From Clostridia bacterium (GTDB taxonomy: Bacteria > Bacillota > Clostridia > Lachnospirales > Anaerotignaceae), in contig RZZU01000011.1 in the NCBI GenBank assembly GCA_009929735.1, positions 1-64,000 on the forward strand: DNA of 64,000 bases, read 5' to 3'. The notes under the pieces are model-generated. The model searched no databases. It saw nothing but the letters and a program-made list of their open reading frames with translations, and was not told where the DNA came from. A program made the translations under genes and the position numbers. Positions 16,349-49,212 of this stretch are shown in pieces (position 1 is the stretch's first letter; each line of letters opens with the position of its first letter).

Positions 16349-18067
16349 ATGACGGCAAATATTTTTAAAAACTTAATACTGAATTTATCCATGCTGGTGA
16401 TTATAGCGCAGCTTTTGACGAAAACAACGTTTGTGAAGCAATTTATGTTTTCCTATAAAACTGACATTAGGTCTAATTTTGCGCTGGCGGTCATTTTTGG
16501 GCTGATTAGTATTTTGTCAACCTACACAGGAATTAATGTAAACGGTGCCATTGTGAATACCCGTGTCATTGGGGTCATGTCAGGGGGCATTATCGGCGGG
16601 CCTATTGTGGGGATGGGGGCGGCAATCATCGGCGGACTGCACCGCTATTTTTTCGATGTTGGCGGCTTTACCTCTGTTGCTTGTGCGATTTCAACCTTTG
16701 TTGAGGGCATTATCGGTGTATTGGCGTCAAAATATTTAAAGAGAAATAATTGGAAGAAGTGGGACATTTTTTTGCTTGCCGCATTAGCAGAAATTTTCCA
16801 GATGGTCATTATTTTACTGGTTGCAAAGCCTTATTCTGACGCACTGGCGACGGTCAAAATCATTGCATTTCCTATGATTTTGTTTAACTCCTTGGGGATG
16901 GTTATTTTTATATCCGTATTCAATTCCATTTTTATTGAACAGGATAATGAATCTGCCAAAAGAATCAAGCTGGCATTTGATATTTCCGAGCAATGCCTGC
17001 CTTTTTTGCGCAAAGGAATTTATGATAAGGAAAATATGGATCAAGTAACAAAAATGATATTGAAAAACTCCAGAGATGGCGGCGTTGTGATTACAGACAG
17101 AGAGCGAATTCTCAGCTATCAATGTGATGAGGTGCCGCTGAAGGAAGCACTAGAAAACGGCGGTTTGCCACAAATTGTCCATGCGGTAATCAATGAGGAT
17201 GCCGTTATGATTGCCGAAGCTGCCACGGAGGAGGACGTTTTTTATGAACATCTAAAGAAATTTACGATAGTCGGCGCACCCTTGCACAGCAAAGGTCATG
17301 TGGTTGGCGTTATTTTAGTGTTCACTAAAAAATTCAAACTTTCCATCCAAACGGATAAGGATTTTGTAGATGGTTTGTCTAAATTGTTTTCCACCCAGTT
17401 GGAGCTGGCAGAGGGGCAGAAGCAGCGAGAACTTCTGCAAAAGGCGGAATTTAAGGCTCTGCAATCGCAAATCAATCCCCATTTTCTGTTTAATGCCTTA
17501 AACACCATCACTGCCTTTTGTCGAGAAAAACCTGAAAAGGCAAGAGAATTATTAATTGCATTAAGCACTTATTTTAGAAATACACTTAATGCAAATCAAT
17601 ATATGATTAATATTTATGATGAATTTTCTCATGTGGATTCCTATTTACAGCTGGAAAAAGCAAGGTTTGAGGATAGATTGACGCTAATCATTGATGTTCC
17701 TGTCGATTTAAGCTGTCAGGTTCCCAGCTTTATCTTGCAGCCGATTGTGGAAAATGCGGTAAAGCATGGGGCGATGAAGCGAAGCACGGGCAGGGTGGAG
17801 GTCAAGGTTTGGCAAACAGAACAGCTGGTCACAATTTCAGTAAAGGACTCGGGGTATGGAATCCCGCAGGAAATCATTGATGCACTGCATAAGGACACAT
17901 TGGATAGCGCAAAGGTGGGGCTTTCCAATGTGGATAAAAGGCTGCGAAGCATTTACGGGCAGAATTATGGCTTGGACATCAAAGCTTCATCAACAGGAAC
18001 GGAAGTACTCATAAGAATTCCATTGGATAAGGGGGAGGAACGGGATGAAAATAGCAATCGTGGATGA
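16349..18067 (+). CDS. LytS-type sensor histidine kinase
   Basis: The 572-residue protein has a 5TMR-LYT membrane sensor (residues about 5-200, with GGPIVGMGAAIIGGLHRYF-type motif), a GAF-like domain (about 220-350), then the His_kinase block with QINPHFLFN (phospho-accepting H378) and a HATPase domain with ENAVKHG and GYGIP boxes. The closest characterised relatives are LytS (wall/membrane potential) and BtsS/YpdA (extracellular pyruvate). Because a CstA-type transporter lies downstream, a nutrient-sensing BtsS-like role is favoured. It overlaps the regulator gene by 23 bases. Confidence 0.92.
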   Translation: MTANIFKNLILNLSMLVIIAQLLTKTTFVKQFMFSYKTDIRSNFALAVIFGLISILSTYTGINVNGAIVNTRVIGVMSGGIIGGPIVGMGAAIIGGLHRYFFDVGGFTSVACAISTFVEGIIGVLASKYLKRNNWKKWDIFLLAALAEIFQMVIILLVAKPYSDALATVKIIAFPMILFNSLGMVIFISVFNSIFIEQDNESAKRIKLAFDISEQCLPFLRKGIYDKENMDQVTKMILKNSRDGGVVITDRERILSYQCDEVPLKEALENGGLPQIVHAVINEDAVMIAEAATEEDVFYEHLKKFTIVGAPLHSKGHVVGVILVFTKKFKLSIQTDKDFVDGLSKLFSTQLELAEGQKQRELLQKAEFKALQSQINPHFLFNALNTITAFCREKPEKARELLIALSTYFRNTLNANQYMINIYDEFSHVDSYLQLEKARFEDRLTLIIDVPVDLSCQVPSFILQPIVENAVKHGAMKRSTGRVEVKVWQTEQLVTISVKDSGYGIPQEIIDALHKDTLDSAKVGLSNVDKRLRSIYGQNYGLDIKASSTGTEVLIRIPLDKGEERDENSNRG

Positions 18068-18785
18068 CGAAAGACCCTCCAGAAGCGAACTAAGGCATTT
18101 GATTTCCGATTGCTTTGAGGAGGCGGAAATTTTCGAGGCGAGCTCTGGTGAAGAGGCAATGGAATTGTTTTTAAAAGAGGAATTTGATTTAATTTTTATG
18201 GATATTAATTTGGGGGACATTGATGGGACAATCTTAGCCGCTATGGCAAAAAAAGCCCACCCAAAGGTTGAAATTGTCTTTGCAACGGCATACAACAGCT
18301 ATGCCGAAAAAGCATTTGATATTGACGCACTCAATTATATTCTAAAGCCGTTTGACCCCAAAAGAATAGAGCAGACACTTCAGCGTTTTATGAAAAAGCG
18401 CAACAAAGCAAATTTGGGCAAAGAAACGGCTAAGGAAGAGGACAAAACCGCAATTTCAAAAATTTCCATTAGTAGCGATAAAAAGATGATTTTGGTGGAT
18501 ATTTCTGACATTGTATATATCGAAACAGGAAAACGTGCCTGCATTGTGCACGCCAAAGGAAAGTCCTATACGGCGGTTTGCTCGATGAATTCCTTTGAGG
18601 AACGGTTAAAAGAGAGCGGGTTTTTCCGTATTCATAAAAGTTATTTGATTAATTTGAAATATGTGATAGAGATTTATCCATGGTTTAACAATACCACCTG
18701 CGTGAAAATGCAGGGATATGAAAAAGAAGTTTTGACCGTCGGCAGAAATCAGATTAAGGAGCTGAAGCAGCTTTTTAGTATGTAG
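18045..18785 (+). CDS. LytTR-family response regulator
   Basis: The partner of the kinase: receiver domain residues 1-120 with acidic pocket D7/D8 and phosphorylation site D53 (FMDINLGD), a linker, then a LytTR DNA-binding domain (about 145-246, with IETGKRACIVHAKG and HKSYLIN). LytTR proteins bind paired direct repeats about two helix turns apart; a pair with 21-bp spacing is present at 19102-19133, ahead of the CstA-type gene, which makes cstA the probable target. The ATG lies inside the kinase gene after GGGGGAGG. Confidence 0.92.
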   Translation: MKIAIVDDERPSRSELRHLISDCFEEAEIFEASSGEEAMELFLKEEFDLIFMDINLGDIDGTILAAMAKKAHPKVEIVFATAYNSYAEKAFDIDALNYILKPFDPKRIEQTLQRFMKKRNKANLGKETAKEEDKTAISKISISSDKKMILVDISDIVYIETGKRACIVHAKGKSYTAVCSMNSFEERLKESGFFRIHKSYLINLKYVIEIYPWFNNTTCVKMQGYEKEVLTVGRNQIKELKQLFSM

Positions 18786-19101
18786 CTTTGATTTTTAAAA
18801 ATAGAGATGCAGAAGGTGTGGAAAACCATTGGTTTTGGCACCTTTTTTTGTTAAAAACAGATTTTTATGCAGCCTGCTTCTTGAAAGGTAGTGAGGCATT
18901 TTGATTTTCATTGGAAAACATGAGATAGAAGCAATGGCATTTTCAGCTTCCTTTGATCTGCCTGCAAGGAGGTATAAAAACAGTATTGAAAACCGAAATT
19001 GACTATTCTTTATCAAGAGGAAAAGCTGTAAGAAACATAGAAAAATAAGGATTTTTTATACGAATTTATTTGATGTGATGAAAAAACAATGAGATGCGGA
19101 T

Positions 19102-19133
19102 ACATTTTGCACATGGATTTTAGCATTTTGTAC
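19102..19133 (+). promoter_or_regulatory. Candidate LytTR operator upstream of the CstA-type gene
   Basis: Two near-identical 11-mers in the same orientation, ACATTTTGCAC (19102-19112) and GCATTTTGTAC (19123-19133), repeat with a 21-bp period, the geometry recognised by LytTR regulators such as AgrA. They lie 317 bases after the regulator gene and 508 bases before the CstA-type start, with repeat copy B in between. Binding is inferred. Confidence 0.5.
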
Positions 19134-19234
19134 TTTGTTATTAACCAGTGACACTAAAAAGCAGTACAAAAATGAAGAAATCAGTTATTCTCTTCCTATA
19201 AACATAATTCACAGGAATATGTTTCAGAATGAAG

Positions 19235-19520
19235 ACAAACCTTGGGCGTTGCCCTCTCACTGCGCAAGACAGTGCAGACGGCGAAGTCGGCTTTTGCGTA
19301 GCAAAGGTGTTGACCCCCACTTACTTTTTGAAAAAAAGCAAGACACAAAACTTTTATAAACCGCATATTTATGCGGTTTTAGATGGGTCAAGGGTGCAAT
19401 GGCAAAGAAGTGCCATCTGTCCGAAGGACAGCTTTGCTGAGCAAAGTGCTGACCTAAAATCCCTTGTGGGAGTTTGAGGGCAAAGCCATCAAGTTTTTGA
19501 CTTTATCTACACGCTGAAAC
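19235..19520 (+). repeat. Modular intergenic repeat, copy B (longest)
   Basis: It carries nearly every block of the family in one place: CCTTGGGCGTTGCCC, CACTGCGCAAGACAGTGCAG, CGGCTTTTGCGTAGCAAAG, a TTTTTGAAAAAAAGCAAGAC block, the AACCGCATATTTATGCGGTTTT hairpin, GTGCCATCTGTCCGAAGGACAG, GCTGACC, CCCTTGTGGGAGTTTGAGGGC and ATCTACACG. It occupies the 5' region of the CstA-type gene, inside what would be its mRNA leader if the LytTR site drives it. Confidence 0.85.
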
Positions 19521-19640
19521 ATATTTTCTAAGGAATATGTGCTTTTGCCGCCTGGGAATGCAGACGGCAAAAGTCCTGTCCGGATGGACAGAAGAAATTA
19601 TCCGATATTATTATTTTAAAAATGGAAGGAAGGGAAAGTT

Positions 19641-21074
19641 ATGATTAGTTTCTTCGTATGTCTTGCAATTCTTATCATTGGGTATTTATTGTATGGTGCT
19701 TTTGTTGAAAGAACCTTTAAGCCCGATGACAGACCAACTCCGGCCACAACCATGGCGGATGGAACAGACTACGTAGTAATGAGCAACCCCAAAATTTTTT
19801 TGATTCAGTTGTTAAACATTGCGGGGTTGGGGCCTATTTATGGTGCGATTGCAGGTGCATTATGGGGGCCATCCGTATTTTTATGGATTACTTTCGGTAC
19901 TATTTTTGCAGGGGGCGTGCATGATTATCTTTCGGGGATGATTTCCATGCGTCACAAGGGCACCAGCATTTCTGAAATCGTTGGTATTTATCTTGGACCC
20001 TTTATGAAAACAGTAATGCGTATTTTCTCAGTTGTATTACTTATTTTAGTAGGTACCGTTTTTGCAACAGGTCCTTCAGCCTTGTTGGCAATGCTGACAC
20101 CAGAAGCATTTGATGCAAAATTCTGGCTGGTTGTTGTCATTGGATATTATTTCTTGGCTACCTTGGTTCCCATTGATAAATTGATCGGTAAAATATATCC
20201 CATATTTGGTATTTGTCTAATCGTTATGGCACTTGGCGTAGCGAGCGGAATCGTTTTACAAGGCTACACCATTCCCGAAATTACCTTTAGCAACCTTCAT
20301 CCGAAGGGTCAGGCGATTTGGCCATTTATGTTCATTACGGTTGCCTGTGGTGCAATTTCCGGTTTCCATGCGACCCAGTCACCTTTGATGGCTCGTTGCA
20401 TGAAGGACGAAAGAGATGGCAGAAAAATTTTCTACGGCGCAATGGTTTGCGAGGGTGTTATTGCTTTAATTTGGGCAGCAGCAGGTGTTGCATTTTATGA
20501 AAGCACAGGCGGTTTGGCGGAAGCAATTACAAGACTTGGGGGACAGGGCGGCGTTGTATATGAAATTTGCAACACCCTGCTTGGGCCCATCGGTGCAGTG
20601 ATTGCGATGGTTGGTGTTATTGCCTGCCCCATTTCCTCCGGCGATACAGCCTTCAGAAGTGCCCGTTTGGTTATCTCTGACTGGTTTAAAATTGATCAGA
20701 AAAAAATCAAAACCAGACTTGCAGTTACCGTGCCATTGTTAGCCGTTGGCGCACTGCTTTCTCAGATTGATATTACAGTTATGTGGAGATACTTCTCTTG
20801 GAGCAACCAGACATTGGCTATGATTGCTCTTTGGGCAGCGGCAGCTTATTTGCGCAAAAACAAAATTATGCCTTGGATTGCTGTCGTTCCTGCCACATTT
20901 ATGTCAGCGGTAAGCTGTACGTATATTTTGATGGCTCCCGAAGGCTTCAAATTAAGCGCAGGGATTTCTTATCCTGTAGGTATTGTTTTTGCAGTGCTGT
21001 GCTTAGGCTTGTTTATCGTTAAAATTATGAACAAGAATTCCTCATTGGAACAGGATACTGCAAAGAATATGTGA
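19641..21074 (+). CDS. cstA: CstA-family transporter
   Basis: The 477-residue membrane protein has about 13-14 helices and the family motifs: an N-terminal YLLYGAFVERTF, DGTDYV, GLGPIYGAIAGALWGP, GGVHDYLSGM.S.RH.G, and GFHATQSPLMARC. It is the short form, lacking the long C-terminal part of E. coli CstA/BtsT. Characterised relatives import pyruvate or peptides driven by H+. Being next to LytS/LytTR mirrors the BtsSR-BtsT logic, so pyruvate uptake is the best inference. Ribosome site GGAAGGAAGGG; a terminator follows at 21083-21111. Confidence 0.9.
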   Translation: MISFFVCLAILIIGYLLYGAFVERTFKPDDRPTPATTMADGTDYVVMSNPKIFLIQLLNIAGLGPIYGAIAGALWGPSVFLWITFGTIFAGGVHDYLSGMISMRHKGTSISEIVGIYLGPFMKTVMRIFSVVLLILVGTVFATGPSALLAMLTPEAFDAKFWLVVVIGYYFLATLVPIDKLIGKIYPIFGICLIVMALGVASGIVLQGYTIPEITFSNLHPKGQAIWPFMFITVACGAISGFHATQSPLMARCMKDERDGRKIFYGAMVCEGVIALIWAAAGVAFYESTGGLAEAITRLGGQGGVVYEICNTLLGPIGAVIAMVGVIACPISSGDTAFRSARLVISDWFKIDQKKIKTRLAVTVPLLAVGALLSQIDITVMWRYFSWSNQTLAMIALWAAAAYLRKNKIMPWIAVVPATFMSAVSCTYILMAPEGFKLSAGISYPVGIVFAVLCLGLFIVKIMNKNSSLEQDTAKNM

Positions 21075-24277: not shown

Positions 24278-24312
24278 TAAAAATCCTCCCTTGTCGTTGG
24301 TGAAAAAAAGTG

Positions 24313-24509
24313 CCGGCTTTGCCCTCAAACATCCACAAGGATTTGGTCAGCACTTTTGTCCGCAAAGCTGTCCTTCGGACAGATGGCACTTTTTTGCCAC
24401 TGCATCCTTGACCTACCAAAACCCGCATATATGCGGGTTTAATAAAGGTTTTTGGTCTTGCTTTTTTCAAAAAGCAAGTGGGTTTGGGCAACGCCCAAGG
24501 TTTGTCTTC
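24313..24509 (-). repeat. Modular intergenic repeat, copy C
   Basis: Read on the minus strand it has the family order: AAACCTTGGGCGTTGCCC, CTTGCTTTTTGAAAAAAGCAAG, AACCCGCATATATGCGGGTT, GTGCCATCTGTCCGAAGGACAGC, GTGCTGACCAAATCC, TTGAGGGCAAAGCC. It lies between deoD and the methyltransferase gene, both on the minus strand. Confidence 0.85.
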
Positions 24510-24553
24510 AGGCTGGGGTATCGAAAAATCCGATACCCCAACAATGGTGATGA

Positions 24554-35001: not shown

Positions 35002-35040
35002 AAACAGGCTGTAATGGAAGAGTTCCATTACAGCCTGTTT
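35002..35040. terminator. 18-bp perfect hairpin between convergent genes
   Basis: AAACAGGCTGTAATGGAA pairs perfectly with its complement across a GAG loop. There is no T-run beyond the arm itself, so terminator function is likely but not certain. It lies just before repeat copy E. Confidence 0.6.
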
Positions 35041-35043
35041 CAG

Positions 35044-35191
35044 TGTGTAGACAAAGTCAGAATCTTGATTGCTTCGCCCTCAAACATCTACAAGTGAGAG
35101 GTCATCACTTTTGCTCCGCAAAAGCCGCCTTCACCGACTGCCCTATCTTGGTCAGTGAGAGGGCAACGCCCAAGGTTTGTATTCAGCCTGG
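35044..35191 (-). repeat. Modular intergenic repeat, copy E
   Basis: Read on the minus strand: CAAACCTTGGGCGTTGCCCTCTCACTG, ACCAAGATAGGGCAG, CTTTTGCGGAGCAAAAGTGATGACC, TTTGAGGGC, ATCAAG, TCTACAC. It lies between the DUF1858 gene (+) and the TPR-like gene (-). Confidence 0.8.
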
Positions 35192-41943: not shown

Positions 41944-41978
41944 TTTATTTCAGACGAAGGGCAAGGTCAAGGTCAAGA

Positions 41979-42248
41979 CCTTGAGGGCTTTGCCCTCAAG
42001 CACCCACAAGGATTTCACCCTTGACCCTTTAGAAACCCTTTTCTAAGGGGGGCAATAATAGTTTTTCGTCTTGGTTTGGGTTTTTCATCGCTTTGCTCAG
42101 AAAAGCTGTCCTACGGACAAACGACATTTCTTTGCATTGCATTCTTGGCCCATCCCAACCCGCATAGTATGCGGGTTTTCATAAAAGTTTTTGGTCTTGC
42201 TTTTTTCAAAAAGCAAGTGGGTTTGGGCAACGCCCAAGGTTTGTCATG
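41979..42248 (-). repeat. Modular intergenic repeat, copy D
   Basis: On the minus strand: AACCTTGGGCGTTGCCC, CTTGCTTTTTGAAAAAAGCAAG, AACCCGCATACTATGCGGGTT, a GTCCGTAGGACAGC block, a TGAGGGCAAAGCCCTCAAGG end. It is longer than copy C because of an insert around 42020-42100. It is joined to the tandem array at 42233. Confidence 0.8.
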
Positions 42249-49083: not shown

Positions 49084-49212
49084 ACAAACAGCTCTCGGGC
49101 GTTGCCCCCCCACTGCCCAAGATAGGGCAGACAGCAGAGCCGGCTTTTGCAAAGCAAAAGTGCTGACCAAACCCTTGTGGGTGTTTGAGGCAAAGCCATC
49201 AAGATTTTCATT
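49084..49212 (+). repeat. Modular intergenic repeat, copy F
   Basis: Blocks present: CTCGGGCGTTGCCC, CACTGCCCAAGATAGGGCAGAC, CCGGCTTTTGCAAAGCAAAAGTGCTGACC, CCTTGTGGGTGTTTGAGG, CAAAGCCATCAAG. The central CGCATA hairpin and AAAGCAAG blocks are missing, as in copy E. It starts 5 bases after folA. Confidence 0.85.

Follow-up and report, generated by a model that had tools for sequence, protein, structure and literature searches.

How is the cstA gene of this clostridial genome switched on? In the window, i.e. the whole stretch of 64,000 nucleotides analysed here, a gap of 858 bp rich in A and T separates the stop codon of a LytTR regulator gene (18785) from the start codon of cstA (19641). The first-pass annotation had placed two direct repeats with two differing bases and a period of 21 bp between the lytS/lytTR genes and cstA, and repeats as well as position proved to be as described. 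The genes and repeats concerned are as follows.

16349–18067, + strand: LytS-type sensor kinase gene (5TM-5TMR_LYT, His_kinase and HATPase_c domains; Pfam scan)
18045–18785, + strand: response regulator gene with receiver and LytTR DNA-binding domain (Pfam scan), overlapping the kinase gene
19102–19112, + strand: proposed operator box 1, ACATTTTGCAC, an 11-mer nearly invariant across seven same-genus genomes
19123–19133, + strand: proposed operator box 2, GCATTTTGTAC, 21 bp from box 1 and more variable between species
19641–21074, + strand: CstA-family transporter gene (477 aa; PF02554), the proposed target

The two boxes are identical at nine of 11 positions. Excerpts from the literature describe LytTR operators as two direct (or inverse) repeats of 9–11 nt with a spacer of 11–13 nt (PMC4847170). 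The LytTR repeat format fits the window with 11-nt boxes, a 21-bp period and a 10-nt spacer, or an 11-nt spacer if the box is taken as 10 nt, as for YpdB. Judged by itself, the pair is within chance for an A+T-rich gap. An 11-mer repeat of this quality occurred at 21 bp in 71 of 500 dinucleotide shuffles of the gap, and at some period between 15 and 30 bp in 179 of 200. A pattern derived from the pair has a single hit in the window and a single mismatch-free hit in the 2.8-Mb genome, a uniqueness that is circular as the pattern was built from the pair itself. The whole-genome search returned no further perfect pairs, and with up to three mismatches it gave eight matches, the true site included, versus five for the reversed control. 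With the window pair, the YpdB operator has the GCATTT core (in box 2) and the 21-bp period in common. The YpdB motif GGCATTTCAT, as given in part of PMC4847170, reached at best 12/20 at 21 bp in the window gap, a score attained by 386 of 500 shuffles.

Thus the case for an operator has to come from related genomes. Among 60 genomes searched (the window's own included), seven others belong to the same genus. Six of these contain a CstA ortholog with 87–92% identity; the seventh, G006, is without one and encodes a distant paralog only. The first-pass annotation had suggested looking for the same pair upstream of cstA in relatives and had held that lack of conservation would speak against it; in each of the six relatives that have the cstA ortholog, the pair is present with its 21-bp spacing. 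Counting the window, box 1 reads RCATTTTGCAC in six of seven genus genomes and GTATTTTGCAC in L014, while box 2 is degenerate in several species. The combination CATTTTGCAC-N30-AACCAGTGA is exact at the cstA site in six genomes and has one mismatch in G001. Elsewhere in the eight genomes it produced 10 matches with two to three mismatches each, compared with five for the reversed control. A chance repeat in A+T-rich DNA, compatible with the 71 of 500 shuffles, would leave unaccounted for that position, spacing and sequence are conserved in seven genomes and that the geometry is common to other families. As a full account, chance is rejected in view of this conservation, and we give it hardly any credence. 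It is the conservation in the genus, together with the recurrence of the geometry in other families, that lifts the pair beyond chance.

Downstream of the boxes, TAACCAGTGA (19142–19151) is identical in all seven genus genomes and stricter in its conservation than box 2. This strictness may reflect a −35 element or an overlapping site of a second regulator. The conserved block could thus be the site of another regulator altogether, e.g. a catabolite or general regulator at TTAACCAGTGACA, the 21-bp likeness being incidental. In favour of such a site, C. difficile CcpA binds upstream of cstA according to the part of PMC3510511 concerned with it, and outside the genus inspection by eye found just a shifted ATAACC, in L039, in place of TAACCAGTGA. 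By eye, the block is a poor fit to either cre consensus, and a site of this kind could equally be a second, overlapping control. Moreover, the 21-bp pair, the fixed distance to the −10 element and the recurrence with LytTR genes would remain unexplained. We therefore regard this reading as very unlikely and continue with the pair as a LytTR operator.

The gene order itself recurs beyond the genus. Scanning with a CstA alignment yielded 80 named loci; in 12 of these, kinase, regulator and cstA follow each other with the LytTR gene just upstream of cstA. A regulator-profile scan of 391 genomes of the class led to 30 fetched loci, and in 20 of them, the window's own included, CstA is encoded downstream of the regulator in the same direction. 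After de-duplication, 32 LytTR-linked loci from outside the genus, many of them from one family (f45), were compared with 54 cstA loci without LytTR. L123 (identical in sequence to L083), L125 (the window itself) and L020 (same genome as L073) had been dropped before the period spectrum, and L124 (near L088) and L145 (near L141) also before the profile, shuffle and −10 counts. Placed twice 21 bp apart, the YpdB motif scored 13.06 in the 32 linked loci versus 10.75 (sd 0.16) in shuffles. Of 22 periods, 21 bp was the best, with 13.2 versus 11.0–12.0 elsewhere (34 linked loci plus window). The 54 unlinked loci revealed a weak excess at 21 bp (11.22 versus 10.85, sd 0.12). A BtsR-like word showed no peak at 21 in the period spectrum over all linked loci. 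When the best repeat was sought gap by gap, p was 0.05 or less in just three of 16 loci, and the gamma-proteobacterial loci L101 and L112 peaked at 20 bp, not 21.

A two-box profile from linked loci and genus approximates to tGCATTTTATGT...tgCATTTnAtGC. With the genus left out of the training, the profile ranked the window site third among all window positions on both strands, placed the best L014 site away from the conserved pair and scored below 10 in five of the 32 linked loci. Loci of other genera match the YpdB-type motif better than the window site does. As the half-site letters vary from genus to genus, no single fixed word describes the motif. The operators of L021, L022 and L073 contain a pair of boxes of the BtsR-like ACCGYTYA type at a distance of 21 bp; another box, GCATTT-like or related, comes 21 bp later. 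Such operators may be transitional between the two kinds of half-site. Upstream of E. coli btsT (L120, 4281–4657), three BtsR-like boxes, GCCGCTCA, ACCGCTTA and ACCACTCA, follow each other at 21 bp. Both the mixed boxes and the btsT boxes suggest that the geometry stays constant while the letters drift. As a separate observation, short open reading frames resembling one another stand between regulator gene and cstA in L139, L141, L142 and L145.

The geometry extends to the promoter. Although the −10 element played no part in choosing the boxes, a match to TATAAT of at least 5/6 lies at exactly +41/+42 from the start of box 2 in 23 of the 27 sites scoring at least 10, whereas at any other offset from 14 to 69 at most four of the 27 have such a box. 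Over all 32 linked loci the count is 24, from 15 lineages or named organisms. In the window, TACAAA at +42 matches TATAAT at four of six positions, and E. coli yhjX, with its period of 21, has TATGGT at +42. Conservation in the genus and recurrence in other families thus lend support to the two-turn LytTR geometry, and geometry and gene order in the linked loci support the control of cstA by lytS/lytTR, both as first annotated. The elements between regulator gene and cstA are listed below.

18813–18850, + strand: probable intrinsic terminator, a stem followed by T7 (fold −15.3 kcal/mol, z −2.6)
19141–19146, + strand: proposed −35 element TTAACC, overlapping TAACCAGTGA
19165–19170, + strand: proposed −10 element TACAAA, 18 bp from TTAACC and 42 bp from the box 2 start, placed by the geometry common to 24 of 32 other loci
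19203–19221, + strand: left copy of hairpin H1, at the edge of the inserted repeat B
about 19222–19519, + strand: repeat B, a multi-copy non-coding element of 0.3 kb in the predicted cstA leader
19520–19539, + strand: right copy of H1, the duplicated target
19547–19568, + strand: leader hairpin H2, pairing kept in the genus
19576–19591, + strand: leader hairpin H3, pairing kept in six of seven genomes and gapped in L014
19585–19614, + strand: promoter-like site TGGACA-18-TATTAT downstream of repeat B, hexamers not conserved

The probable terminator after the regulator gene, which is not among the hits of a consensus scan of the gap (the scan lists no terminator there), suggests that cstA needs its own promoter. 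TTAACC-18 bp-TACAAA is unaltered in five of seven genus genomes, with one hexamer altered in L010 and one in L014, and transcription is predicted to start near 19177. From the −10 element to the start codon there are 157–161 bp in four of six relatives, 146 bp in L014, 380 bp in L013 and 476 bp in the window. Because of the insertion of repeat B, the window leader would be about 465 nt long instead of about 150 nt.

Inserted elements can part a gene from its old promoter. An insertion such as repeat B could have done so here, in which case cstA would be transcribed from 19585–19614 and the pair would be dispensable. TGGACA-18-TATTAT is in fact the best consensus match in 18780–19650 (10/12). 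Against it, the four promoter-like sites in the gap compare with 2.3 (sd 1.8) in shuffles, and the genus conserves the upstream core but not the TGGACA and TATTAT hexamers. Furthermore, the leader hairpins are kept in relatives, which fits a transcribed leader and argues against a promoter downstream of them. We consider the downstream promoter unlikely. With the promoter core conserved upstream and the start predicted near 19177, the earlier suggestion that the cstA leader contains repeat B is supported, and the element indeed lies between pair and gene.

Pairing in H2 and H3 is kept mostly through G-U changes, with 92.4% of cells paired. Strong RNA covariation in the leader was rejected, as both partners had changed in just one of the 15 pairs and the score was equalled by 33 of 500 shuffles. 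A known Rfam leader element was likewise dismissed, the search giving just a sub-threshold match to wcaG (E 0.69).

Further copies of repeat B lie in the window near 1562–1768, 24304–24510, 35036–35185, 41969–42245 and 49094–49208. The element measures about 0.22–0.29 kb between recognisable ends, and BLAST gave at least 80 matches in the own genome, 34–64 in each of three relatives and none in G006. Six of 27 candidate copies (L154, L165, L166, L175, L177 and L178) were without a recognisable end. Of the 21 copies with both ends, 15 have direct-repeat flanks (shuffle count at most 5/100) that differ from locus to locus, L163 and L164 with their identical flanks being counted each. Read by eye, the duplicated flanks are mostly whole hairpins, often terminator-like. 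By its copies and flanks, repeat B resembles a non-autonomous element whose insertion targets are hairpins, which become duplicated in the process; in the cstA leader, its insertion point is hairpin H1. In L013 (G005), a diverged insertion of similar length sits at the same leader hairpin, about 109–330 bp before cstA; it may go back to a single ancient insertion that other relatives have lost, or the hairpin may have been hit twice independently.

Which regulator and which signal would act on this operator? The genome contains four LytTR domains, and the regulator is thus assigned to the site by adjacency. The adjacent genes encode together a 5TM LytS sensor with a His_kinase domain and a receiver-LytTR regulator, all above the Pfam cut-offs. 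In alignments, the regulator motif FFRIHKS corresponds to the LytTR consensus FhRhHRS, as quoted in part of PMC4227749, and H378 of the kinase to the phospho-histidine of BtsS. The pyruvate pocket of BtsS is built from R72, R99, C110 and S113 (PMC10653868, in extract). All four are kept in the kinase as R72, R99, C112 and S115. Among 13 aligned kinases the pocket arginines and the cysteine are invariant, whereas the serine is replaced by Thr in two and by Ala in one. The transporter scores 193.1 bits against PF02554 (gathering cut-off 27). The equivalog cut-offs are not reached, neither that of NCBIfam PRK15015, the CstA pyruvate/proton symporter (84.7 versus 1188 bits; 477 aa versus a model of 701 positions), nor that of PRK11697, BtsR (134.7 versus 246 bits), and by that rule the proteins are relatives of BtsR and CstA, not orthologs.

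Gram-positive LytS kinases have also been linked to other cues. The pair might accordingly be a LytTR operator that answers to lactate, another carboxylate or the state of the cell envelope, and kinases with altered Cys/Ser may sense other acids, as suggested in part of PMC10653868. Against this, the kinase retains the complete set of four BtsS pocket residues, and the proposed target encodes a transporter of the CstA family. A signal other than pyruvate is a minor yet real possibility, and pyruvate remains the probable cue.

Two E. coli systems resemble the locus in different respects. Like the window, YpdA/YpdB (PyrS/PyrR)-yhjX combines a LytS/LytTR pair with a 21-bp direct repeat of GGCATTTCAT, compared with RCATTTTGYAC in the genus of the window, and a −10-like hexamer (TATGGT) 42 bp from the second GCATTT. 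Unlike cstA of the window, yhjX carries the annotation of a different transporter and is encoded at a distance from its regulator genes. BtsS/BtsR-btsT shares the pocket residues, the CstA-family target and boxes at 21 bp upstream of the gene; in contrast to the window, the boxes ACCGCTTA/ACCACTCA are ACCRCTCA-like and three in a row, and btsT is not beside btsSR. A strict BtsR-type operator was rejected, the letters differing from the btsT boxes. Thus, of the likeness to BtsSR-BtsT seen by the first-pass annotation, sensor pocket and type of target stood, but not the operator letters, which have the GCATTT core of YpdB/yhjX. As the half-site is nearer to GGCATTTCAT than to the BtsR boxes, the analogy holds for the kind of system but not for the subtype.

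Among Gram-positive bacteria, Clostridioides difficile (L088) and Romboutsia (L067, L083) share with the window the gene order, CATTT/CACTT-type boxes at 21 bp and a −10-like hexamer at +42, and differ in that their boxes extend as CATTTNATGTA. The C. difficile LytSR-cstA locus is CD2600–CD2602 in print, and CD2601/CD2602 are named in extracts of PMC9045287 as flanking the CdtLoc region. Its cstA gap also contains a CcpA site which, as published in part of PMC3510511, lies in L088 directly after the proposed −10 element. VirR boxes of C. perfringens and AgrA at P2/P3 of S. aureus likewise consist of paired imperfect direct repeats that closely precede the −35 element in strict phasing, in the relevant part of PMC2838878, and agr P2 has the same suboptimal 18-bp spacer (PMC4227749, in part). 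Both differ from the window in half-site sequences, spacing and regulons.

We conclude that the pair is, in all likelihood, the operator through which the adjacent LytTR regulator would switch on cstA, in a LytS/LytTR system probably sensing pyruvate and with repeat B in the leader. The LytS-type kinase would probably respond to pyruvate outside the cell, or to a closely related 2-oxo/hydroxy acid, and phosphorylate the regulator, two molecules of which would then occupy the two boxes, 21 bp apart, on the same side of the double helix. Rather than repress, the bound regulators would help RNA polymerase at the weak promoter TTAACC-18 bp-TACAAA, whose −10 element is placed four helical turns (42 bp) after box 2. 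As a result, a transcript from near 19177 with a leader of about 465 nt including the mobile repeat would direct synthesis of a CstA-family transporter, probably for pyruvate.

Very probably, this is a known kind of switch, here in Clostridia. In the open-licence literature searched, pyruvate sensing by LytS/LytTR systems is described mainly for gamma-proteobacteria, and we came across no report of a clostridial cstA with a LytTR operator in front of it. A bolder generalization would be a Clostridia-wide rule for LytTR-driven cstA promoters, with box 2 at +21, the −10 element at +62 to +63 (three times 21 bp) and half-sites drifting between YpdB-like and BtsR-like, and with a hairpin-targeting mobile element that in the lineage of the window then rebuilt the leader and added RNA-level control of the transporter. 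We find this wider scenario unlikely as a whole. The locus and its relatives nevertheless predict that many Clostridia apply the same logic to a CstA-family transporter. The geometry of operator and promoter is precise enough for finding further targets, and the system extends to C. difficile, whose cstA is bound by CcpA.
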